From Porodaedalea pini (taxonomy: Eukaryota; Basidiomycota; Agaricomycetes; Hymenochaetales; Hymenochaetaceae), in NCBI GenBank assembly GCA_002794775.1, contig NBAY01000002.1:620001-684000 (forward strand): a stretch of 64,000 nucleotides of DNA, given 5' to 3'. A program made the translations under genes and the position numbers. This document shows, piece after piece, positions 2,028-58,547 of this stretch. Positions within the stretch are counted from its first letter, which is position 1. Each line of letters begins with the position of its first letter. Below the pieces are notes generated by a model. The model was not told where the DNA came from, ran no database searches, and saw only the letters and a list, made by a program, of their open reading frames with translations.

Positions 2028-2766
2028 TCACACTCGCACATCCTCTGGCAACGTCTCCTCAAAATGCACCGTGCACTCGCTGAAGCTCGGACGTCCGACG
2101 ATTTCCAGCTTTTCGAAAAATAATATGTTTTCAAACCAGGTGGATCTGTTCAATGCATGGAGGGCCTTGAGTGCATTGCAACCCTCAGAACGAACAATCT
2201 GAGAATTTGGCCTCTCGTAAAACTCCTCTTGACAGCTCCGACCCCCTGCTTTTACTGTCAGATGCTCGATCTGTGGCAGGTGCCTCAGAATAGCATCGAG
2301 GGAATCGACGGTGTCTGGTCTGTAGTAATGTTTTGTTTCGCGAAGGCAAAAGGACAGCTCCTTCAGAGAGATATACTCCTGCGCTCTAAACGGGAGATAG
2401 TCTCGTGAAAGGACGCTTGGAAGGACCCCGTGATTCTCTTCCATGAACGTGACGCAAATTTTCTGAATGTTTGGAGTGTGCAAGATCCGCATCATCAGTT
2501 GCACCGAATGGCACTGGTTGCGTTAGTCGCTTCAAACTCCAGAGTCGTCAAAGTAGACAAAGTGCATTCCAATTCAGAGTCAGCGAGGTCCGTCCCAAAA
2601 TGAAAGCCACTCAAGTCCATCCTTAGGTTCTCCAGGTGGCGAAGAGAGCCCCAAAACTTGATCAAGCAATCGACACGGTCGTGTGTTCCGTCCGGTGCAC
2701 GGATCGTGTTTCCTGTGAATACATTGTAAGGATGATGCCACACCGGACGAGCGAGCATCCAAAGGA
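2028..2766 (-). pseudogene. F-box paralogue B/C, 3' half, cut off by a transposon
   Basis: C-terminal half of the same gene whose 5' half lies at 5989-6924; the two are separated by the TIR element 2767-5988. The minus-strand sequence resumes with CTCG-rich sequence matching the paralogues just after their conserved PxxGxGxSLV region. It continues through LRHLENLRM, LTTLEFE, MRILHTPNIQK, RAQEYISLKEL and GRPSFSECTVHFE, and stops at 2028. At least two frame lesions are present: one near 2715-2730, after IILT, and one near 2495-2505, where the LTTLEFE frame ends and the HTPNIQK frame begins. The order and spacing agree with paralogue E at 25,900-26,640. The product is not expected to be functional. 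Confidence 0.85.
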
Positions 2767-3029
2767 TCATCAGGAAAAACCTCCTGGCCGGAATCCCTGG
2801 AATCCCTGGAATCAGCTGGAATATTTGAGCAATTCCAGCCAATTCGGAGGTATTCCGATTCCGCACGATTCCTAAGCATCGTTCCAGATTTGAGTAATTT
2901 GACTAGTTTCCGATACCTTTCTACACATTTTTATTCACATTCTTACTGCATTCCAAACTTTTCAATCATTTTCTTACGGATTCTTGTGGCAATTGAGTGT
3001 ATTTAAACAAATTCTAAACTAAAAGGATG

Positions 3030-4800
3030 TCACGGCCGGTCGTCGGAATGAAGCCTTTCACAATCATCATGTACAGACCACCAGCAAACTTCTTCTCAGA
3101 CTTGATGCCCAGGATGACGGGTACGGCAAGCAGCTCCTTTTGTACATGCGACGACGTAAGGCGCACCGTGGCATCGGTCTTGAGTTCCACAAAATCTACC
3201 TTGTGAAGCTTGGTCTCGCCGGTTTTGAGAGCACGCAAGTATGAAGCAATGTCAGCACGACATCGTCCCATTGTCACGACGCGCAGGCAAGACATGTACC
3301 TTGCCTTCGCGTGCTCGAACATCTCCTGTTGGATAGTCTTGAGAAGTGCAGGTATGGCAGTCTCCTTCAAGCCTGCATCACGTCGCACAGAAAGTGTTTG
3401 CTTCTTCTGGATATTAACCGGACCGAGTTCAAGACAAAGTGGAACACCTGGACAAAAAGCCATTTGTAAGACCACAGGTAAACCAAGAAATAAGGAATAA
3501 TTGAATTTTCGCGCCTTCTGTTTCCAGTCGTTGAACTTGTAGCCAGGAGTGTAGCCGTCCCGTACATCCACCTTCGCGCTTTCCTGAGCGTCTTCGCGAG
3601 CTCCTCACAGCGGTCGTATAACTCCTGCTTATAAGTGCGCATGGTAATACCGCAGGGCACAATGAGCGATGCGTGATGGGAGAACAAGACCCTGGTTGTC
3701 GCCGCGAATCATGACCATGATTCCGAGCATGCGTGTGCTAAGGCTCCATGTGTTCTGCCACAGAATAATTTGCCACCATTCGAACTCGTGCCCTGCAGAT
3801 CGTCCAGGTCTGATATCACGACGTTGAGCATCTCTGGCCATGAGAAGTCTTGGCCAAGGCAATGCGACGTCGCAGCTTGGATGCCACGGCCGGTCATCGT
3901 GTAAAGACCACCGGCAAACTTCTCCTTGTCCGACTTGATGCCTGTGATGACGAGTACGGTAAGCAGCACCTCGTACACGCGACGATGTAAATTGAGAATT
4001 TCCCGTACTTCAGTAGAGATACATGGCCGTTTCTGTAGTCGGACAGATTGCTATGGGTTCCTCAAGCTCGGAGCTCCCTCTGAAGACGCATGTCATACCG
4101 ACCTTAATCAGCGCCTATAATATTTGTCAGCACAAAGTGAGGGATTACAGAACAATCAACGCAAGTTCGTATACCAACCCGGGAAGTCGACCCTTTCTTC
4201 ATGCCAATAGCAATCTTCACCATGCCGTCAATTCTCCCTTCCTCTTTCGTTGCCTCTTCCTGGGCGGCAATTGCAGACGTGCGCACAGCAGGCACCACAG
4301 CCTTAGCCTTGAGTTCCATGAAATCTACCTCGTGGAGCTTGGTCTCCCCATTTCGAGACACGCCAGTATGAAGCAATGTTGGTTCCAGGGAGGAAGACAG
4401 TAAAATCAGAGGCGAGCACATGTACGGTGAAGAGGGAAGTCGATGATGTGAGTGATGCATCAAGGACCGTGACAACCTTTGGGAATGTGTTTGTGTCAAG
4501 TGCTAATGGTGAAACTGGACGAACTTTAACAATGCGTGTGGACAGATAAAGAGACTGGGCTCATGGGAGTCCTTGTCCAACACAAAAAAGTATTTTAGCA
4601 GGTCTGGCGATGCATGCAATGACGACAACAGGAACTGTTGCGGCAGACTTTACGGTCTTCGGCTTGAAGACGAGCATTCTAATAAGTTGAAGGTCAGAAG
4701 TCGGACGGCATGTTGCCTGCAGCAGTGAGTGCATCCCACCAGGTGGTCGGCGAGGCTACCACTTTGTGTGTGATGGTTGCGGTGGATGTGATCGAGGGTT
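3030..4800 (-). pseudogene. Rearranged prolyl-tRNA synthetase pseudogene inside the TIR element
   Basis: Read on the minus strand in several frames, the order follows a fungal cytosolic ProRS. First is a YbaK-type editing domain (LVFKPKTVKSA near 4670; VVTVLDASLTSSTS near 4460; GETKLHEVDF near 4340), then EEGRIDGMVKIAIGMKKG (near 4230). There is a gap where class II motifs 1 and 2 should be. Then KEKFAGG and TSHCLGQDFS (3830-3950), WQNTWSLSTR and HGDN-like RGDNQGLVLP (3680-3770), VPCGIT (near 3650), PGYKFNDW (near 3540), and GVPLCLELGP plus SVRRDAG (3360-3445). A second, shorter copy follows directly: ADIASYLRALKTGETKLHKVDF joined to LLAVPVILGIKSEKKFAGG (3070-3255). A sequence like an unspliced 66-nt intron interrupts FNDW and GVPL, pointing to capture from genomic DNA. 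Stops and frame changes exclude function. Confidence 0.82.
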
Positions 4801-4944
4801 TTTTCAGATGTTCTGTAAGGACGTTGGCACCAGACATATTGGAGTGGCAGCAGATGTGAAGACTATGTGTGGCGTGTCGTGTCAAAACCAACATACATGT
4901 GATCAAGTTCCCACACCTCTTCTGTGGACTTAGCAGTTTTTGTC

Positions 4945-5605
4945 ACCTGAAGTGCCTCCAAATACAAAATACATCATATCTCACTCAATTCTTCACAAAA
5001 ACTCTTCAAAAAAGTTGCTAAATTTATGTTTCAATGGTTTCTAAAATTTATGTGAGCTTAGAGGACAGAAGGTGGAATATTGAGGCTGCAGTAGTGAGAA
5101 TGGATGTTTTTCTAGAAAACCTCCTTCCCTGATTTTTTCCTGAGCTCAATTTTGAAGCTAATGACATGAAACTTGTTGGAGAATGGTATCTATATTGTAT
5201 ATTAAATTATAGATGGCTTATAACAATGCAGGCAATTTTTTGACAGCTGTCTGAGTCAAGCAAATTTGGATGAGTCTGAGAGTTTTAGCACAACAGTCAA
5301 ACAGGACAAGAGGAAACATTCACTCTAGTTCATCCCTCATAGCATCAACAGTATAATATATAGACCATTCTTCTACAAGTTTCATGTCATTAGCTTCAAA
5401 ATTGAGCTCAGGAAAAATCAGGGAAGGAGTTTTTTCTAGAAAAACACCCATTCTTACTACTGCAGCCTCAATATTCCACCTTCTGTCTACTAAGCTCACA
5501 AACATTTAGAAGTTGTTGAGAAATAAATTTGGCCACATTTTTGAAATGATTCTGTGAAGAATTGATGGAGATATGGATTTTACAAGTTTTTGAGGTGCTG
5601 AAATG
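4945..5605. repeat. Large inverted repeat within the TIR element
   Basis: Arms of about 250 bp face each other around a spacer of about 145 bp. The best-conserved parts are 5052-5190 and 5360-5499. For example, GACAGAAGGTGGAATATTGA at 5063-5082 returns in reverse complement at 5468-5487. Similarity fades outward toward 4945 and 5605. The pair would fold into a long hairpin as RNA or cruciform DNA. It contains no recognisable coding sequence. Confidence 0.8.
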
Positions 5606-5988
5606 CTCAAATTTTGTGATCTTCACATGTCTCAAGACTTATGAAAAACACTGTAACCTGCAGATAGTTCATGGGTCCCAGTATAGGTCCAAGAAGCCAA
5701 TCTAGCACCTGTACCTGTGTCAAGCCATGGCAGAATCTAATGAATTCCACAATCAGTTTTTTATTCTACAAAATTCCATAGAATCTATGAGGTGTATCAT
5801 TTTTCTATCCATATTCTGAATTTCAAGCTGCCAATTCTGTTCAATTCCAAAACTTGGACAATTTTCCATGAAATTCTACAAGTTTTCTAATTTTTGGACT
5901 GCATTCTCATGACATTCCAAAGATTCTACAATTTTCTACAATTCTAATAACTTTCTAAGGGTTTCTGAGCAGGAGGTTTTTCCTGATG

Positions 5989-6924
5989 ATGGAACAGGGT
6001 TCATACCTTCGATGGTTAGGCAAGCCAGATTAGGCATGACCCAGGTCGAGTAGAATTCAACATCTTTTCTGCCTTTACACAATGCTTTTAAGGTTAACGA
6101 GCGCAGCACGGGCAACTCCAACCTGCACTGTGTCTCGTACAGCAACTGGGAACATTCCCGATGATGGTATTCCCAATTTTTGCCGATGTAAAGGGATTCC
6201 CACCGTCTAGTATGAGAGAGGAACGCAACTATGTGCTCGAGGTTGTCAATGTGCCTTTTTTCCGGTTCGACACGACCCGACGAAGCTAAGAGATAAACGT
6301 GTAGTCCAGTAGCTTTGCTCCGTAGGAAATTCGAGCTTCGAGCCGCCTTTGTCTGTGCCGATGTCACCACACTCCATAACGACGGCGTTCTCAGTGCGAT
6401 CAAGTGAAAATGGTGATTGACACGAGCAAGTGTGTTCCCGAGCTGGTTCGGGTCAGCTTTCGCCACTCCTGTGACACGATCTATGCTTTTCTCAAATGCA
6501 GCACCGTGATCAAAGGCGAGTTCAAATATGTGCATGATAATTTCGTCGGGCAAAGAGTCCAAACTGCGGTCTCTGGAGCGTGTCTCCAGCTGTTTCTGCA
6601 GATTTCTGGCGCCGCTCTCGATCTGCTTTTGCATCAAGGCCAGGCCTGTCTCCGCGTTCCGTAAGATATCAAGCATGGCTTGTAGTTGTCCGGGGACATC
6701 TTCCTCAGGGTCTGAGTCGGGAAATAGATGTCGTTTAAAGGATCTGCGCACGACATTGAGTCATTCTGTATGTCACAGAGCTAGAGCATAACGACATCTC
6801 ACCCATCTGGTGTCCAAATATTGCCCTCGTCACTGCAAGAAAGCTTGTCAGCAGACCTTCCTGCCAAGAACGATATGACGGCCAGCATGGATTGGTGATC
6901 AAATGGAAGGTGTGGTCGATTCAT
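5989..6924 (-). pseudogene. F-box paralogue B/C, 5' half, cut off by a transposon
   Basis: Exon 1 is 6924-6803 (MNRPHLPFDHQSMLAVISFL..WTPDG, 122 nt) with donor GG|GTGAG. The intron is 6802-6744, and exon 2 starts at 6743 after GCGCAG. Exon 2 encodes a leucine/glutamine-rich helix (RNAETGLALMQKQIESG), the F-box LDSLPDEIIMHIFELAFDHG (about residues 95-115), and the start of the leucine-rich tail up to LTIEGMNPVPS. At that point the TIR element begins. The start is chosen because paralogues E and F share exactly this exon 1 (start, 122-nt length, donor). Without the insertion this would have been a gene of about 500 codons. As it stands it would give a truncated protein of about 290 residues ending in element sequence. 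Confidence 0.85.
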
Positions 6925-7384: not shown

Positions 7385-8902
7385 TCACTCTGAAGTTCTC
7401 ATCAGCTCACGGAAGGCATTCAAAGCATTCCTGCCCCCAGAACGGACAACGCGGGTATTCGAACTTTCGCAGCATTTCGTTTGCGAGCCGCGAGTCTCTG
7501 CCTCTATCACAAAATGCTTTGACCTGAGGCAAGCGTCTAAGAAGGGCACCAAGATCACGGAAATTGTCTGGGCCGGAAAAAGCATCCGACACCGAGATAC
7601 ACGAAGAACAGCTCCTTCAGAGACGTGTACTCCGCTCTGGCAGCCAGCCAGCCGTTTGGAAAGAACCGAAAGGGCCTCTGGCGTTCTTCCATGCACGTAA
7701 CGTAACACAAAGTTCCTGAAATGTTTGGAGTACGTAAGGCTCGCATCATCACCCGCAATGAAAGAAAAAGCCTGGACACGCCTCGCGGTTCAAATTCCAG
7801 CATCGTCAAAGCAGGCAGGTGTGCACTTCAACGGCGAGTCAGGGAGAAACGCCTCAGCGAAATAGTAGCAAGTGAAGACCCATTTTCAATCTCTCCAGGA
7901 GAGGAAGAGTGCCCGAAAACGTGGACAAGCGATCGGGATGGTCGGCCATCAACCCCCTCCTAAAGTACATGTCTGCATAGTCCCGTGTAAGGACGATCTC
8001 ACACTGGACAAGCCAGGATCCGAAGCATGGAACCGGAGTCATGTCTTCGACGGTCAGGAAAGTCAGATTAGGCACAACCCAGGACGGGTAGAAGTCGGCG
8101 CAATCAGCTTTCACTCTGCCTCCAAACACCGTCTGTAATTGTAGCGAGCGTAACGCGGGCAAGTCCAGTTTGTGCTACGTATCGTACAGTAATTTCGAGC
8201 ATTTCGGATATCTGTATTCCCATCCGTTATGGATGTAGAGAGATACTTAACGTAGAACATAATCAACACGCCCTTCGCTGCATCCTGAAGGACCTAAGAG
8301 ACAAATACGTAGTCCAGTCGCTTTGATCCTCGCGAGGTGCGTGTTTCGGGCCTCCTCCGTTTGCCCCGATGACACTGTACTCCACAACACCAGTGTCCCC
8401 AATGCGACCGAGCGAAACCGACGACGAACACGAAACAAGTGTATTCACAAGATCGTTTGGGTCAAGCCAAGCCTCCGTCATTCCTGAAGAAATGATCCAT
8501 GCTTTTCTCAAATAGCAGCACCATGATCGAAAGCGACATTCACAGATTATGCATGATGAACCTCATCCGGCAAAGCGTTCAGGGTTTTCAAAGTCCCGGC
8601 CCTGTATCTCTAGATGCTTCACACCACTCTCAATCTCTGTTTCTTTATCGGTGCGGGGCCCGCCTCCGCATTCCTCAAGAGGAGACATCCAGCACACAGC
8701 TCGCATGTGTCCGGGAATGTCTTCCGCAGGAACAGAGTCATCCAGTACATCACGAAGCGTGAAAGCACCGACGACTCACCCGTCTGGCGCCCAAGCATCG
8801 TCCTCATCACCGAAGAAAAGGCTTTCGAACCGACAGATTCATCAAGAACAACACGACGCACTGCATAGACCGGCGATCAAACGAAAGATCGGGTTGGTCC
8901 GG
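7385..8902 (-). pseudogene. F-box paralogue D, decayed
   Basis: Full-length but broken copy of the family. Exon 1 (8902-8780) keeps DQPDLSFDRRSM but has CCG where ATG is expected. It carries an extra base (123 instead of 122 nt) that shifts the frame before the conserved DEDDAWAPDG end. Its GG|GTGAGT donor is intact. The following F-box region (about 8600-8500) has several stops and indels. Downstream landmarks survive in different frames: LRIC-LLGPSG near 8290, NLTFLTVEDMTPVPCFGSWLVQCEI near 8000-8070, LTMLEFEPRG near 7800, MRALRTPNISG near 7740, EYTSLKELFF near 7620, and FEYPRCPFWGQE near 7450. It is useful as the empty-site reference for the transposon insertion in the neighbouring copy. 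Confidence 0.85.
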
Positions 8903-24081: not shown

Positions 24082-24989
24082 CCTTCCATAGCTTTTATGA
24101 ATGGCAGGAAAAACAAAGAAAACCAATGAAAGATAGAATTCATTTTGTTTCCCTTCTTTCACGACCATGACGATGACCACCGCATACCCTATCTTGTTCT
24201 CGTTTTGTCCAGTCTCCTGTTCACATGCCTGTGACTTTTTTTTTGCTTTACTCTTTACTTTGTAATTTATCAGCTACGCTGGGCCCTTTGTAACGGCTTT
24301 GCTATCCAGGACATTTTCCCCTCCGATCTTCGTATTTTCAAATGTCATTATTCTGTCTTCTGCAAATATGGAATGGGATGTATACTAGGTGGAAGGAAAC
24401 AAAATGCTGCGTGCTTGATTTTGGACCGTAGGTGCAGGTTCAAGCTACAATCTACTTGCTACCTTTTCAATATTCGCAAATGTTATAGGGCTGGGAAGGA
24501 GGGAGAAGAGAGCTGCTGGTAAACTATGGCCCTTTCTGAGGCGGTCCACCGCAGAAGAGCTCACCATGCATCTGTCTAGTCCTACAATTTCACCATAGAG
24601 GAGAAAGGTAGACAGTTTACAGTGGCAAAAACTCATCGCTTGTGCGAAATGCTTGTATATCTGTCGTTTAAGGGATATATTCTTGAGGACCAAGACAAAA
24701 TAGTAAAGCTGCAGAAATCCTTTTTGTGAGCACGTCAACAAAGCCAAATAAAAGCGTCGCGTCGTAAAACGATCACACGTCTGCCTGTGAAAGACCTTTG
24801 ACTTAGTCTAGACTTAACTGCCATTTCGCGAAACGCTGGAGGTTCGCACGCACAATCTCTCATTGCAACCTTTCCATTGCCAACTAGTACAGGCTGTAAA
24901 CTCGATCAGAGGCTCCGAGCACTGTTGGTCGGAACTTTTTTTTTTTTTTCAGATAGCGACACGTCTCAGTCGCAGCGAACGGTACAAAC
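24082..24989. other. Intergenic: PalI 3' flank and upstream region of F-box paralogue E
   Basis: No gene. 24,082-24,400 is the 3' flank of palI. 24,720-24,985 resembles the upstream sequences of the other F-box copies (GCCAAATAAAAGCGTCGCG at about 24,733, matching 27,062 and the complement at 9,150), including the leader TGTAAACTCGATCAGAG. A T14 tract lies at 24,936-24,949. Confidence 0.5.
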
Positions 24990-26672
24990 ATGCAACAATC
25001 CAACCTCCCGTTTGACCATCATTCCATGCTGTCCATCGTGTCGCTCTTGGCGGAAAGGTCCGTTCACGAACCAACCTGCAGGAACGAGTGCGACTTTTGG
25101 ACACCCGACGGGTAAGTCGTCCGTGCTCTTTTCTCTTTTGCAACATGCAAAAAAAATGACTCAATATCATGTGCAGCCTCTTCATGCGCCATTTGTTACC
25201 AGACTCCGATCCTGCGGAAGATACACCCAGACGCCTGCGAGCTATGCTTGACGTCTTGAGGAATGCGGAGACAGGCCTCGCCTCGGTGCAGAAACAGATT
25301 GAGAACGACGTCAAGAATCTGCAGAAACAACTGGAGATGCACTGGAAAGCCCGCGGCCTGGACTCTTTGCCCGACGAAATTCTCATGCATATCTTTGAAA
25401 TCGCTTTTGATCATGTGCTGCATTCGAGGAAAGCATAGATTATGGTACAGGAGTGGCAGAGGCTGACCCAAATAGCCTCGGGAGTACACTTGTTCGTGTC
25501 AATCGTCGGTTTCGCTCGATCGCACTGAGGACACCATTGTTGTGGAGTATAGTGTCATCGGGGCAAACAGAGGAGACCGAAACATGAATCTTGCAAGGAG
25601 CAAAGCGACTGGACTACGTGTTTATCTCTTAGCCTGCCCACAACCTGTCGAGCGCAACGAAACGTGTGTTGATAGCACCGAACACATAACTACGCTCCTT
25701 TCTCATGTTCTGCGTTGGGAAATCCTTCGCATTGGTACCGAATGGCAAGACGATTATCCGGAATGCTGGAAATTACTGTATGAGGTGCAGCGCAAACTGG
25801 ATTTGCCCGCGTTACGCTCGTTATATTTGAATTGGTTGTCTGGAGACAAAAGTAACGATGATTGCTCCGACTTCTACTCGTCCTGGGTTATGCCTAATCT
25901 GACTTTCCTGACCATCGAAGACATGATTCCAGCTCCAGGCCTCGGATCCTCGCTTGTCCAGTTTGAGATCATCCTTACAAATTGGTATGCAGAAATGGGG
26001 GTACAGACCGGCTATTTCGATCGCTTGATCACGTCTTTGGGCACTCTTGTCTGCCTGGAGAGATTGAAAATGGTCTGCGGTGGCTGCTGTTTCGATGAGG
26101 AGAACTTTGTTGACCTGGCGCTGAAGTGCGCATTGTCTTCTTTGACAATGCTGGAATTCGAAATGCAAGAAGCAGCAAGATGTTCCTTGCAGACGATGAT
26201 GCGAGTCATGCATACTCCGAACATTCAGAAACTTTGCGTTACGTTCACAGAAAGGCTTACGTTCACGGAAAGGCATCACGGGGTCTGTCGGTTCCTCACA
26301 CACAGCTACCTCCCGGCCAGAGCGGAGGAGTACATATCTTTGACAGAGCTGCTCTTCGTCCATTTCGGTCGAGAACACCTTCCAGGTTCGGACACTATCC
26401 ATGACCTTGGTGCTCTTCTTAGGCGCCTGCCTCAGGTCGAGCGTTTGGCGATAAAGGCAGAGGCCCGCAACTCGCAAAAGAAATGCTGCGAAAGTCCGAA
26501 CACTCGCGTTGTCCGTTCTGAGGGTAGCAATGCTTCAAATGCCCTCCATGCGTTGATGAGATCCTCCTCGCTGGGAAATATAAAACTACTCGAAATTGCC
26601 GGACGTCCACGTTTTAGCGAGTGCACGGCGCATTTCAAATGTCATTACTTGCCCACATTGGCAGAATTTTGA
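24990..26672 (+). pseudogene. F-box paralogue E, two frame lesions
   Basis: Best-preserved complete copy. Exon 1 is 24990-25111 (MQQSNLPFDHHSMLSIVSLL, 122 nt), the intron 25112-25176 (65 nt), and exon 2 starts at 25177 (LFMRHLLPDSDPAED). A helical NAETGLASVQKQIE region precedes the F-box LDSLPDEILMHIFEIAFDH (to about 25,414). There one G is missing relative to the other copies (GATCATGTGCT for GATCATGGTGCT), and the frame stops at 25,438. The expected protein continues in another frame (VRVNRRFRSIALRTPLLWSIV), shifts again near 25,560, and then stays open as 376 residues to 26,672. That last part has NLTFLTIEDM, LSSLTMLEFE, MHTPNIQKLCVTF, LLRRLPQVERL and RPRFSECTAHF. If the two indels were sequencing errors the gene would be intact at about 550 codons. 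As given it is broken. Confidence 0.8.
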
Positions 26673-53652: not shown

Positions 53653-56600
53653 CTAGAGGTCAAATGATGGTGGTAATTCAGATAAAATAGGCATACTGTC
53701 AGGAGGTCGACGATACGAAAAGTAAGCAAATTTTAGGAGTAAAAGAAAGTTATTTGGACGGAACCATTCAGTAAACGTTAATGGAAGAGATCGTTGATGA
53801 AAAAGGCCTTTCCGAATGAGGGAGAAGAAAGGACAACAATTAAGAATATGGCGGACATCATGTTTGGTGCACGAGGGGTCTGGGCACCGGGGTTCGAGGT
53901 TTCGATTATGCAGGTCGAGCACGTTCAACATTAAGTTGGCAGCACGGGAAAGAACTGTACGATGTATCTTTTTCCTAGGGGAAAGCTTCAGGAACGGACG
54001 AAAGGATCGTGTTGGGTTTAGGATGAATGAGGACGGTTCGATAATTGAACGATGTCCCCGAAGGTTGACAATATCTCTTTTCCAATCTCGAAGAAGGTCG
54101 AGATGTACTTGAGCATTCAGATTGGGTAGGGAATCTGGAATCGTCTCGCGATTAGGTTTGGTAGCGGCGTCTTTTGCGAGCTTGTCGGCTTTGGAGTTGC
54201 CCAGTACTCCTCTGTGGGATGGGAGCCACTGGATAGTGATGTGTGAGGCCTCGTGATGGAGGGCGAGAAATATGCCACAAAGACGGCGGAAAGTTGTGAT
54301 GAATTCCGCATGTCGAGTATCGTTAGAGAAAATGAGCTCGACGCAGTTGAGTGAGTCCGTAACGCAATGAATGTGTATGGGGGTGAAGCATTTCGCCAAT
54401 AGGAGGGAGATACGATGTATAGCTGCGATGAGCGCTTCCTGCTCCTCAAACAAGATGTTTGAGCGAGAGTGCGCTGCTGAAGAAAAGACAGCGAGTTCTT
54501 TGTGATCGTGCATGATGACGAATCCATGGCCACCGGTGATAGAGCCATCGGCATGAGGGATGATGGAGCCATCTGTGAAAATGAAGTACTGGTAAGGGGG
54601 AGGGTGTAAAAAGAAAGAATTGAAATCATGAATGGCGCGATTGCGTTGAGCTAAGGAAGGTATAGGAGTCATAATAAGACGTGAATGAATCTGGGTAAAG
54701 GTAGGAAAGGGCGTGGATTTCGGAACTTGGACGTCAGGGAGAAGGGATGACAGTAAATATTGTTTCGGAATGGGTTTGTGTTTTGAGTATGAAAAGTATG
54801 ATAATAAGAAACGTTGGGAAAGGGAACGTATGAAAAGAGGAAGTGGTGGACATGATAAGAACGATTCTGCCACCAATGTTTTGATGTTTTTATGGAATAT
54901 TAAGTCAAAGAAGCATTTTTGAGTTGGCTGAAGAATGGTAGAAACGAGGAGGGAATCAGGGAATAAGACAGCACCATAGGTGGCGACCAAACGAATCAAA
55001 CCAAAATATAAAAGTCTGGCATACTGGAAATATGCGCTGTTTGCGCGATGGAACAAAAAGGAGCGTTGGTGGATGGTAGAAAGGGCCTTGTTCGCCCGGG
55101 CTATGAAATGAAGTTTGGGTGAGAGGTCATAAGAGAAAATCACACCTAACCATGTGAGATGAAGCAAAGGGGAAATTACGCGATTGTTGGGTAATGACAA
55201 TACTGCATCAGATGAAGATGGAGAGCCCTGTAAAAAGGAACGGAAAGAAATGGCCGCTGCGCGGCTTTCCGGAAGAATGTGAAGGAGTTCGATGGCATCA
55301 GGGTCTATGGAAAGACCGAGACGTTGAAATTGTAAGGATAGAAATGTGAACTGATTGCGAAGACGTGTAAGGTTGGTACGAATACTAAGGGATCGAGAAA
55401 AGAGAAGATGGTTGTCCATGTACGCGAGTAGAGGACGATGAGGGCCGAAACGAGAGTTATAAGCAGAAATGACATCTGAGGCGACGAAAACCGAAATAAG
55501 AGGGGATAATGGAGACCCTTGAGGAACGCCTCTATTGGGTTTAATGAAAGGGGCAGAAAAGAAATCATTGAAACAGAAAGAAATTGGTTGGTCCCTGAGC
55601 CAACATGAAAGGACGCGAATGATGTTTGGGTGAACGTTGGAAGCAATGAGTTTATGAAGAAGGCGATTGTGAGAAATGTTATCAAAGAAACCTTGAATGT
55701 CCACTGTAAGGACAGAAGTGATGAGGTAGCGATGTCGACGAAAAAGACGACCGGAATTATCGCCAGAGTTGACGATGTAGGGTTGAGATAAAATAGTAGA
55801 AAGGAGTTCATAGCAAGCCGTAAGAGAAGAGTGATGTTTCCTGCACCCATGCTGGGCGTCAGGGAGGAAATTGTTAGTTTCGAAGAAAGGTTGCAAAAAA
55901 TTGAAAAGAATGCGTTCGAAAAGCTTGCCGATCGTATCGACCAGGGTAATGGGACGATAGGCCCAAGGAACTGAAAAATCAGCACGCTTGGGCTTAGGAA
56001 TGAATGTAACAAGGGATGTTTTAAAGGATAATGGGAAATGGCCGAGCCGAAGGCAAAGGGAAAAAAGGTCAACGAAGAATGAACCGCGATGTTCCATGAG
56101 TAAAGCAAGGTGTTTGTACGAGATGTGGTTGTTACCAGGGCTCGTTTCTTGGTCAATGCCATTGAGCGCATCTTGGATATCGCTCATCGTCAGGGGTGCA
56201 AAGTCACGGAGGGCTGGGAGTGGGATGACATCTGGTTTGGACGATAACGGGGGAAAGAAAGTTTCGCAAAAAAGAGACGCTTTATCGTCTTCCGAAAGGG
56301 TGAACGAGCCGTTAGCCATCCGCAATGCCCCGATAGGGGAGCGACGGCGAGCTGTACCCAGATATTGGTTATGCCAGATGGATCGGGTATCGGATTGCTG
56401 GAGGCGGGTGCCAAAAAAGGCATTTTTGGTGCATGTAATCTCGATGTAGAGGCACTGACGCATTTCAGGGTTGGGGTTTCGACAGTGTTTGTGATACAAT
56501 TTTGAACATGCTTTGGACCACCAGGAATTGGGGCCGAAATATGAACACGGCTTTTGTTTGCTAAGGAAAATGGTGGCAAAGTTGGAAAAGGAGGTCTGAA

Positions 56601-57522
56601 ACGAAAACAGGAGGTCATCCAGCGCCTCAGGTGTGTGAATGTCTGATAATGAAAAGGCAAAGGTATTAGAGTCGCAGAATTCTGCAACAAAAGCAGGCAG
56701 ATCTCGAGATCGAATAGAACGAAGGGCTGGTTTTGTGGCGGAGGGGATTAAGTCCAATTGGAAAGAAAAAAGGAGCGGTCTGTGATCAGACGAAATATCC
56801 AAAGAATCTATTGAAACAGAGACATGGTCTAAAAGGTAAGGAGCGAAGTCTTCTGAAGCGAGGATGAGGTCAATGATTGTTTTAGAATTGTTAGAACGAT
56901 TGAAATAGGTGTGTTGACCCGGGGGGTTACAAACAGTTAGGCCGCTATCGTTGATCCAGTCAACGAGGGCTGTTGACCTCCAGAATTCGTTCGACTGGGC
57001 TGGAAAAGACCACAGGTCGCAATGTCTGTTAAAGTCCCCAACGAAAATGTTAGAAGGGAATCGACATGAAGGAAAGGGATTTTCGAATTCATGAAGGCTG
57101 GGAGAATTGTAAACGTTCCAGAGAAGGAGAGGGGATGCGTCGTCCTGCGAAATGGAGATGACGCAAATATTAGGGGAAGGGGGGTCGGAGTCAAATAACG
57201 AGATGCGGTGTATGATCCGCGGGTGTACCAGGGTGCAACAGCGCAGCTTGGCTGAAGGGGAAGGCCGGAAAATTGTATAAGGATGGGAATTGTGAATTTG
57301 GAAGACGCGTGAACCCGAAGGGGATGTTTTAGAAGGGATTGTGGATAAAATAGTGGGGATTTCCTGAAAACAAATGATATCAGGCGTATAATTAGTAGAT
57401 GAAAAGGAGCGTAGGAGATAGTCGAAGGTTGGTTCTGAATTGTGGACATTAAGAGAAAAAACAGAAATCGTGTCAGTCATGCGAATTAAAAGGGGGACTT
57501 GTAGTTGCGGCGAGCTGGACAC
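53653..57522 (-). CDS. LINE ORF2: endonuclease, reverse transcriptase, RNase H
   Basis: Single uninterrupted frame of 1289 residues. The endonuclease motifs are present: SLNVHNSE (N), CFQEIP (E), VGDFNRHCDLW and SSDHRPLLF (about residues 20-245). The reverse transcriptase has LVTFIPKPKR, AYRPITLVDTIGKLFERIL, motif A TVDIQGFFDNISH and PNRGVPQGSPLSPL. Motif C reads AYMDNHLLFS, so the second aspartate of YxDD is Asn (codon at 55411-55413). RNase H residues are kept: FTDGS, EEQEAL, VTDSLN and NSKADKLAKDA. A terminal finger-like CPDPSCTKHDVRHILNC follows. The start overlaps ORF1 by 37 nt, which suggests coupled translation. The frame is coding-intact, but catalytic competence is doubtful because of YMDN. 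Confidence 0.9.
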   Translation of the reverse strand: MSSSPQLQVPLLIRMTDTISVFSLNVHNSEPTFDYLLRSFSSTNYTPDIICFQEIPTILSTIPSKTSPSGSRVFQIHNSHPYTIFRPSPSAKLRCCTLVHPRIIHRISLFDSDPPSPNICVISISQDDASPLLLWNVYNSPSLHEFENPFPSCRFPSNIFVGDFNRHCDLWSFPAQSNEFWRSTALVDWINDSGLTVCNPPGQHTYFNRSNNSKTIIDLILASEDFAPYLLDHVSVSIDSLDISSDHRPLLFSFQLDLIPSATKPALRSIRSRDLPAFVAEFCDSNTFAFSLSDIHTPEALDDLLFSFQTSFSNFATIFLSKQKPCSYFGPNSWWSKACSKLYHKHCRNPNPEMRQCLYIEITCTKNAFFGTRLQQSDTRSIWHNQYLGTARRRSPIGALRMANGSFTLSEDDKASLFCETFFPPLSSKPDVIPLPALRDFAPLTMSDIQDALNGIDQETSPGNNHISYKHLALLMEHRGSFFVDLFSLCLRLGHFPLSFKTSLVTFIPKPKRADFSVPWAYRPITLVDTIGKLFERILFNFLQPFFETNNFLPDAQHGCRKHHSSLTACYELLSTILSQPYIVNSGDNSGRLFRRHRYLITSVLTVDIQGFFDNISHNRLLHKLIASNVHPNIIRVLSCWLRDQPISFCFNDFFSAPFIKPNRGVPQGSPLSPLISVFVASDVISAYNSRFGPHRPLLAYMDNHLLFSRSLSIRTNLTRLRNQFTFLSLQFQRLGLSIDPDAIELLHILPESRAAAISFRSFLQGSPSSSDAVLSLPNNRVISPLLHLTWLGVIFSYDLSPKLHFIARANKALSTIHQRSFLFHRANSAYFQYARLLYFGLIRLVATYGAVLFPDSLLVSTILQPTQKCFFDLIFHKNIKTLVAESFLSCPPLPLFIRSLSQRFLLSYFSYSKHKPIPKQYLLSSLLPDVQVPKSTPFPTFTQIHSRLIMTPIPSLAQRNRAIHDFNSFFLHPPPYQYFIFTDGSIIPHADGSITGGHGFVIMHDHKELAVFSSAAHSRSNILFEEQEALIAAIHRISLLLAKCFTPIHIHCVTDSLNCVELIFSNDTRHAEFITTFRRLCGIFLALHHEASHITIQWLPSHRGVLGNSKADKLAKDAATKPNRETIPDSLPNLNAQVHLDLLRDWKRDIVNLRGHRSIIEPSSFILNPTRSFRPFLKLSPRKKIHRTVLSRAANLMLNVLDLHNRNLEPRCPDPSCTKHDVRHILNCCPFFSLIRKGLFHQRSLPLTFTEWFRPNNFLLLLKFAYFSYRRPPDSMPILSELPPSFDL

Positions 57523-58547
57523 TCCGATGACCTAGTGCTGTGGTTGCCCTGGCAGTTAATGCACCGGGCAAAGTGATCGCAGTGGAGGTTATTAGACGCT
57601 GTGCATGGAGCGCATTTCGTGACATGTACGGCGGTTCGATGTGGTTCAGAACAGATCGCGCAGTGCGCTACTGACTGACATTTCAATGCGGCGTGTCCTA
57701 GGTGATGGCAGTTATCGCACTGGTTGATGGTGGGGCGGGCTTTCATCTCCTTGAGGTGGCAGATGACACCAAAGACTGGAACAGATCTGTTGTTATGGAG
57801 GAAGAAATGATTGAAACAAAGACGAGAATCGTCCTTGAGGATAACGGAAACATTACAGTAGTCTCGTTGATTGAGACGTTCAATAGAGGACATGAACCGG
57901 GGCGGGAACATGAACTCGTAACCTTCGAATTGGGGTAGGGCGGAGATTTCGTCATGTAAGTCCTTCTCAGAATAAATGAGGTTGGTGTCCTTATCAAAGA
58001 CAGGAACGCCGGGGATGACCATCTTGAATTGGGGTGAAGGAGTGAATGCTCTCGCGCCTGAGATGTTGATGATGCAATTGAGTTGAATGACTAGAGCACT
58101 GTATTGGGTGTCAAAATCCAAACGAATGTTAGTGAACGCAATTAAGAGATTGCTATTAGACGTGTATTCCACGTTGAGAATAACGAGATGTTTGAAGAGC
58201 GGGTTGCCTTTAAGGCCCGCACATACTGTGTTCTTTACCGAGAGAGTAGAAGGACGGACGGCGAGGTCGCCTGGAAGTGCGAAAAAGATGCGACGAACAT
58301 TATGAACGTGCGTATTCACCGATCCGTCAGATCGGTTGATTGGGACGGTTTGAGACTTCCCCTTGGGGGTTCTGCTCCGTGGTTCGAGTAACCTTGGTAA
58401 GAACCGTTTTAGGTTTCTTTTGGGCTGCTTTGGCGTACGACACTGTGGTGAAGCCTTCCTAGTCGACTCCAACTGATTCAACCGCTGGATGGTAGATTGT
58501 AGTCTGTGATCTGCGAGGAGCATTATGTGCTGAGTGAGCGTAACCAT
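57486..58547 (-). CDS. LINE ORF1, main frame with zinc knuckles
   Basis: 353 codons. The N-terminal part is basic (PKQPKRNLKRFLPRLLEPRSR). The middle resembles the RNA-binding region of LINE ORF1 proteins. The C-terminal part has knuckle-like clusters: CDNCHHLGHAALKC, CAICSEPHRTAVHVTKC and CINCQGNHSTRSSEC. The likely role is nucleic-acid binding in the ribonucleoprotein particle. The reported ATG may not be the native start, since an upstream frame at 58575-58889 looks like the beginning of the same protein. Confidence 0.75.
   Translation of the reverse strand: MVTLTQHIMLLADHRLQSTIQRLNQLESTRKASPQCRTPKQPKRNLKRFLPRLLEPRSRTPKGKSQTVPINRSDGSVNTHVHNVRRIFFALPGDLAVRPSTLSVKNTVCAGLKGNPLFKHLVILNVEYTSNSNLLIAFTNIRLDFDTQYSALVIQLNCIINISGARAFTPSPQFKMVIPGVPVFDKDTNLIYSEKDLHDEISALPQFEGYEFMFPPRFMSSIERLNQRDYCNVSVILKDDSRLCFNHFFLHNNRSVPVFGVICHLKEMKARPTINQCDNCHHLGHAALKCQSVAHCAICSEPHRTAVHVTKCAPCTASNNLHCDHFARCINCQGNHSTRSSECPARRNYKSPF

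Follow-up and report, generated by a model that had tools for sequence, protein, structure and literature searches.

The window (the whole stretch of 64,000 nucleotides that was analysed) contains an F-box gene interrupted by 3.2 kb of DNA in which pieces of a prolyl-tRNA synthetase (ProRS) gene are found. This raises the question of how parts of a tRNA synthetase gene came to lie inside another gene, and whether a mobile element brought them there. The sequence-only reading of this locus had proposed a non-autonomous transposon of the Pack type, with host gene fragments between terminal inverted repeats (TIRs). We analyzed the ends, the relatives and the cargo of the inserted DNA, and consider it, with a probability of roughly 0.92, to be a non-autonomous DNA transposon of Pack type that belongs with PlavakaB in the CACTA-like CMC group.

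Structure of the window element

The whole element spans 3,221 bp (2768..5988). Its left TIR of 19 bp (2768..2786, plus strand) and right TIR of 19 bp (5970..5988, minus strand) share the sequence CATCAGGAAAAACCTCCTG with 0 mismatches, and a search of the 64-kb window at up to 3 mismatches found two matches, both of them the element ends, so that the perfect TIRs reported earlier are the sole such pair in this region. Two matches were seen in 0 of 100 shuffles of the window. The element is flanked by AT on the left (2766..2767) and on the right (5989..5990), in agreement with the 2-bp target-site duplication (TSD) that had been claimed; sister copies described below show other dinucleotides, and the duplication is thus not specific to AT. 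The interrupted gene lies on the minus strand. Its 5' half (5991..6760) was recognized by an F-box-like domain (Pfam match in 5993-6760, 1.9e-5) and by alignment to paralogues, and the same alignment placed the other half at about 1900-2767. Two paralogues are present in the window, A at 7685-8581 (plus strand) and B at 24983-26635 (minus strand). When the two halves were joined at a single AT, the junction aligned without a gap to both A and B, with scores of 270.5 and 277.5, respectively. The scores were lower for both paralogues if the AT was removed (261.5 and 272.0) or kept twice (265.5 and 273.0). The earlier statement that the halves of the host gene are colinear with two paralogues was therefore borne out.

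Inside the element, the ProRS pieces were on the minus strand, in several frames and rearranged. The ProRS profile TIGR00408 matched at 8.6e-7 and two separate frames matched solved ProRS chains (9.3e-17 and 2e-11), as expected from the earlier assignment to a tRNA synthetase gene; the Pfam anticodon-binding match alone was weak (0.015, under its cut-off). The stretch at 3017..3604, which includes a 196-aa stop-free frame, corresponds to the anticodon-binding region, which has an intron-like break, and then to part of the catalytic region in a second copy. Since the anticodon-binding part was matched first and the earlier catalytic part after it, the order of ProRS is scrambled here. A catalytic-region piece in another frame (3712..4050; C2:623712-624017) gave the match of 2e-11 to solved chains. 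Further upstream in the gene are a piece at 4019..4111, read by eye as ProRS, and two pieces in different frames at 4320..4467, which by eye are a putative ProRS N-terminal part and which were colinear with the cargo of longer elements when aligned to L064 and L067. For the L067 frame that was read by eye as MA3/ProRS N-terminus, nothing was found in solved structures, and nothing in Pfam above cut-off. Also, the ProRS frame is interrupted between NDWK and GVPL by 73 nt ending in AG. This stretch was present in 15 of 20 elements (pattern search) and looks like a retained intron; its start at the pattern-defined cut is not GT.

Two other features of the interior are shared with relatives. A 189-bp stretch (4455..4643) occurs in the 3.2-, 3.9- and 9.5-kb copies that were compared; its first 37 bp were the part matched in the 5.35-kb copies L064 and L067, and no match was found in the 4.5-kb copies. 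Near the right end the element contains a large inverted repeat (4975..5575), each arm measuring about 225 bp, that is common to the full elements and to right-end loci among the matches listed and may give hairpin RNA. The longest stop-free frame within the element is the one of 196 aa. The transposase search covered the Plavaka family PF18759 alone, which had 64 matches in the genome and 0 in 14 control genomes. None of the 64 fell in the window element, which is therefore not an autonomous PlavakaB element; the earlier claim that no transposase frame is present agrees with both results. Elsewhere in the window, long frames of 1,289 and 353 aa were noticed at 53653-58547 (minus strand), a region of strong GC skew.

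A family with transposase-bearing partners

The genome that contains the window (G000, 53.3 Mb in 201 contigs) was searched for relatives. The 17-bp TIR core occurred 261 times (129 + 132) at up to 1 mismatch, and the same pattern read backwards gave 0 + 0 in the same 53.3 Mb; many other loci thus carry these ends. Among the best 40 of 77 candidates for the left 200 bp, 34 were at least 93% identical and six were 78-87% identical, and all of the best 40 of 96 candidates for the right 200 bp were at least 96% identical. We compared 20 elements end to end, including that of the window, and found the same TIRs around different interiors of 3.2 to 13.6 kb: 3.2 kb (eight, with the window copy), 3.9 kb (one), 4.5 kb (four), 5.35 kb (three), 6.7 kb (two), 9.5 kb (one) and 13.6 kb (one). 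Among these 20, the nearest copies to the window element were L061 and L062 (98.8% and 98.9% identical, respectively, over full length), and the remaining five 3.2-kb copies were 93.9-96.4% identical to it. The longer form probably preceded the 3.2-kb form. The 2-bp flanks were identical on both sides in 17 of the 20 elements (P 3e-18 against a flat 1/16) and did not match in L062, L069 and L080. The dinucleotides varied from element to element, which ruled out an AT-specific target duplication.

The 9.5- and 13.6-kb copies were considered as autonomous elements and rejected, because their extra DNA is a Gypsy-type LTR retrotransposon, together with a nested element in the 13.6-kb copy. These retrotransposons lie inside L063 and L075/L076. 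A further insert of about 0.65 kb in L078 has inverted ends (ACTAGAGTTGGAG) and is MITE-like by eye. The 6.7-kb copies contain an extra 2,124 bp that starts with CATCACGAAAAC, ends with its complement and is flanked by AT on both sides; the sequence of the insertion site is uninterrupted in the window copy. This nested element (L074 637-2760; also in L077 and L075/L076) is present in the 13.6-kb copy as well, where it is split by a further insert. It carries an HMG-box match (1.3e-6). As this match sits in an element that is nested and has TIRs and an AT/AT duplication of its own, the HMG-box piece was rejected as a capture into the ProRS/eIF4G family. A search of the genome with the nested element gave 41 matches from the best 40 of 141 candidates, 26 of which, the query's own included, run exactly from 1 to 2124. 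Judged by its ends and duplication, the nested HMG-box family appears to be again PlavakaB-like.

To relate ends to contents, the first 100 of the 261 TIR places, all of them exact, were combined into 43 adjacent inward-facing pairs, with 14 ends left unpaired, and the pairs were compared with the start positions of the 64 Plavaka rows, the best 150 of 268 ProRS candidates and the best 132 of 158 eIF4G candidates. We found that 40 of the 43 pairs had scored ProRS and/or eIF4G matches inside and no Plavaka match; one of these 40 spans 52 kb and probably joins two unrelated ends. If ProRS sequence had simply been copied by segmental duplication and had come to lie between inverted repeats by chance, this would be in line with the abundance of ProRS pieces in the genome, including places distant from the listed TIRs. 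However, the enclosure of ProRS or eIF4G matches by 40 of 43 inward pairs, the matching flanks in 17 of 20 elements and the gap-free paralogue alignment across the insertion point all stand against it, and we regard it as extremely improbable.

The other three of the 43 pairs enclosed Plavaka transposase (PF18759) and neither scored ProRS nor eIF4G. They are located on C3 (25.2 kb) and C7 (13.5 kb), where the listed Plavaka stretches have no stop, and on C6 (20.6 kb), where there is one stop. Two additional Plavaka pairs, likewise with neither cargo, were C36:371139-382885 (no stop in the listed stretches) and C40:359393-371546 (three stops). The autonomous relatives sought after the sequence-only reading were thus represented by five pairs in which this 17-bp TIR core encloses a Plavaka transposase. 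Our comparison of their ends with those of the window family covered about 130 bp at the left end and 20-30 bp at the right, and within that extent the ends are shared, as would be the case for a non-autonomous derivative. For example, the left subterminal stretch 2768..2900 is common to the C36 and C3 elements (87% over 133 bp), and C6 and C40 differ at their right ends by 1 mismatch from the right-end 30-mer pattern of the family, which has two degenerate positions. The C7 element has AA/AA flanks and the 17-bp TIR core of the window family; its right end aligned with that of the window element in the TIR, and weakly in the remainder.

In the available text of PMC12730594, PlavakaB is described with termini 5'-CATCA..TGATG-3' and TSDs of 2 or 3 bp. 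The same termini are present in the window family, and the TSD length agrees (2 bp in 17 of 20 elements, AT/AT in the window, AA/AA for C7). The element could instead derive from another group with short TSDs, such as Harbinger/ISL2EU-like elements or EnSpm, and according to the same portion of PMC12730594, Harbinger-related elements may show TSDs of 0, 2 or 3 bp. That origin is very unlikely in our view, given the combination of CATCA..TGATG termini with 2-bp TSDs found in the PlavakaB description (PMC12730594, available text) and the Plavaka transposase, the family covered by our search, within five pairs having these TIRs.

Captured ProRS and eIF4G sequences

In the 4.5- and 5.35-kb forms, and in the forms built on them, a long eIF4G piece lies beside ProRS; no match to it was found in the 3.2-kb form, including the window copy. 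The MIF4G domain of this piece scored 2.5e-38 in L064, and its best match among solved structures was the p150 subunit of initiation factor 4F (2vso). Among 1,083 related proteins, none of the best 120 exceeded 77% identity to it; Laccaria amethystina and Phellopilus nigrolimitatus were among the sources of the best relatives, which points to a mushroom-forming fungus as the host. By pattern search, all 10 eIF4G-bearing copies among the 20 elements retained two introns (51 and 52 nt, GT..AG), and at the place of the first one, models from other fungi (P0001, P0043, P0014) leave the exon, as judged by eye. The retention of eIF4G introns in the cargo argues for capture from DNA. For ProRS, the corresponding feature is the intron-like stretch. 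A likely donor of the ProRS cargo is the probable host ProRS gene on C57, judging from its similarity: among the best 58 of 455 candidates, C57 gave the best ProRS match in the genome (387.7 bits); it also gave the best match to the ProRS C-terminal domain (86.4 bits) and was 78% identical to a 102-residue stretch of the cargo.

Some Plavaka elements carry working genes (TET/JBP), and the present elements might similarly carry eIF4G-like or ProRS-like accessory genes that function under selection. Open frames of 345-378 aa in many eIF4G-like copies, the still strong MIF4G match (2.5e-38) and pN/pS below 1 in most comparisons could be read in this way. We compared 28 non-independent pairs of 8 copies with nucleotide identities of 97.0-99.7%. 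Two pairs had no synonymous change, and pN/pS in the other 26 ranged from 0.18 to 1.56, being below 1 in 21 and between 0.52 and 1.56 in 23. In addition, the codon following SSRM was TAG in all 10 eIF4G-bearing copies, an in-frame stop after MIF4G. Strong purifying selection on the cargo was not supported by the mostly high pN/pS (0.52-1.56) and the shared TAG, and there may be weak constraint, the changes being few. Recent spread can account for the open frames, since the 8 copies are nearly identical and pN/pS is mostly 0.52-1.56; the pattern fits that of a broken piece that has spread recently. Considering also that ProRS is scrambled in the window copy, we find a working cargo improbable. 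Because of the shared in-frame stop and pN/pS values mostly within 0.5-1.5, the eIF4G cargo is probably debris.

Many ProRS and eIF4G pieces are distant from any TIR among the matches listed, which suggests that the cargo may have had older carriers. Diverged sequences with both eIF4G and ProRS were seen at C24:32335-35512, C71:18207-21981, C135:3345-7119 and C31:103154-106331; they are 77-84% identical over residues 1-236 of the MIF4G query, with a TAG inside each, and no exact TIR was found around those on C24 and C31 among the matches listed. The four loci could represent carriers of this cargo that are older than the present family or differ from it. Other eIF4G-like pieces (71-76% over about residues 1-115) were found on C38, C42, C48, C54, C77, C106, C143 and C171, in stop-free open frames of 306-432 aa, and are candidates for transposon cargo or host genes.

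Returning to the Pack-type PlavakaB reading, the following course of events may be proposed. Parts of two host genes, for ProRS and eIF4G, would have been taken up as DNA into an ancestral element, probably when the gap left by an excision was faultily repaired, and later internal deletion and rearrangement would have given the 3.2-kb form of the window. A Plavaka transposase encoded elsewhere in the genome would bind the common ends and cut and paste the element, with the cargo as a passive, decaying passenger.

Known systems and wider meaning

The Pack-MULEs and Pack-TIR elements of plants have TIRs and a TSD, carry captured pieces of host genes, occur in many copies and are mobilised in trans. 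MULEs produce TSDs of 8-11 bp and have their own kind of transposase, and Helitrons, which move by a rolling-circle route, have neither TIR nor TSD. The window family resembles plant Pack-MULEs in its TIRs, TSD, captured gene pieces and many copies; unlike them, it has a TSD of 2 bp, outside the range of 8-11 bp, and is linked to Plavaka. Host-gene fragments lie between its TIRs with no Plavaka transposase, and introns in 10 of 10 eIF4G-bearing copies indicate DNA-level capture. With the sister copies, the ProRS/eIF4G interiors and the Plavaka partners that have the same ends, the Pack-type part of the sequence-only reading stood; it had included neither the PlavakaB superfamily, eIF4G, the free choice of 2-bp targets nor the signs of cargo decay.

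Pack-TIR elements are mentioned in the accessible parts of PMC6710886 and PMC10799480. The closest published case, as far as the available text of PMC12730594 goes, is PlavakaB itself, with the same termini, 2-bp TSDs and a carried gene other than transposase (TET/JBP). The window element differs from it in having no transposase and in carrying ProRS fragments, with intron-containing and stop-containing eIF4G in sister copies, instead of TET/JBP. According to the accessible part of PMC6710886, hAT elements of Dothideomycetes captured histone H3 without introns, from a transcript or retrocopy; they have an 8-bp TSD, occur in hundreds of mostly truncated copies and contain a transposase domain in 277 of 471. 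Both cases involve a fungal DNA transposon that amplifies part of a housekeeping gene, whereas the present family is PlavakaB, with a 2-bp TSD, retained introns and no transposase in the element. Pleurotus ostreatus Helitrons with captured genes (PMC4289320, available text) are likewise a basidiomycete transposon family with gene capture, unlike the present one, which has TIRs and a TSD. Besides, transduplication has been reported in Pyrenophora (accessible part of PMC3538342), and for Marasmius oreades, Plavaka TIR motifs and non-autonomous families are described, with gene capture not mentioned in the available portions of PMC8290104 and PMC9674265. In titles and abstract openings of the open-licence literature, we found no description of gene-fragment capture by Plavaka, the nearest being the TET/JBP paper.

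In plants, TIR transposons that capture genes are known to contribute to gene shuffling, and fungi offer precedents in the hAT elements and, from the parts of the sources available, in the whole genes of TET/JBP carriers. The present case is of interest for the superfamily involved and for the strength of its evidence; the principle is not new. Young copies are present by the dozen, together with transposase partners, pieces of two captured genes and a likely intact ProRS donor, so that one could retrace how the capture proceeded. There is also a warning for annotation, in that gene models named 'ProRS' or 'eIF4G' in genomes of this kind may belong to the cargo of transposons. At least two candidate Pack-type families are present in this genome, the ProRS/eIF4G family and the nested HMG-box one. 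We tentatively suggest, at somewhat less than even odds, that in mushroom-forming fungi Plavaka transposases recurrently give rise to families of the Pack type that shuffle genes, which would make these families a possible counterpart of the plant Pack-MULEs.
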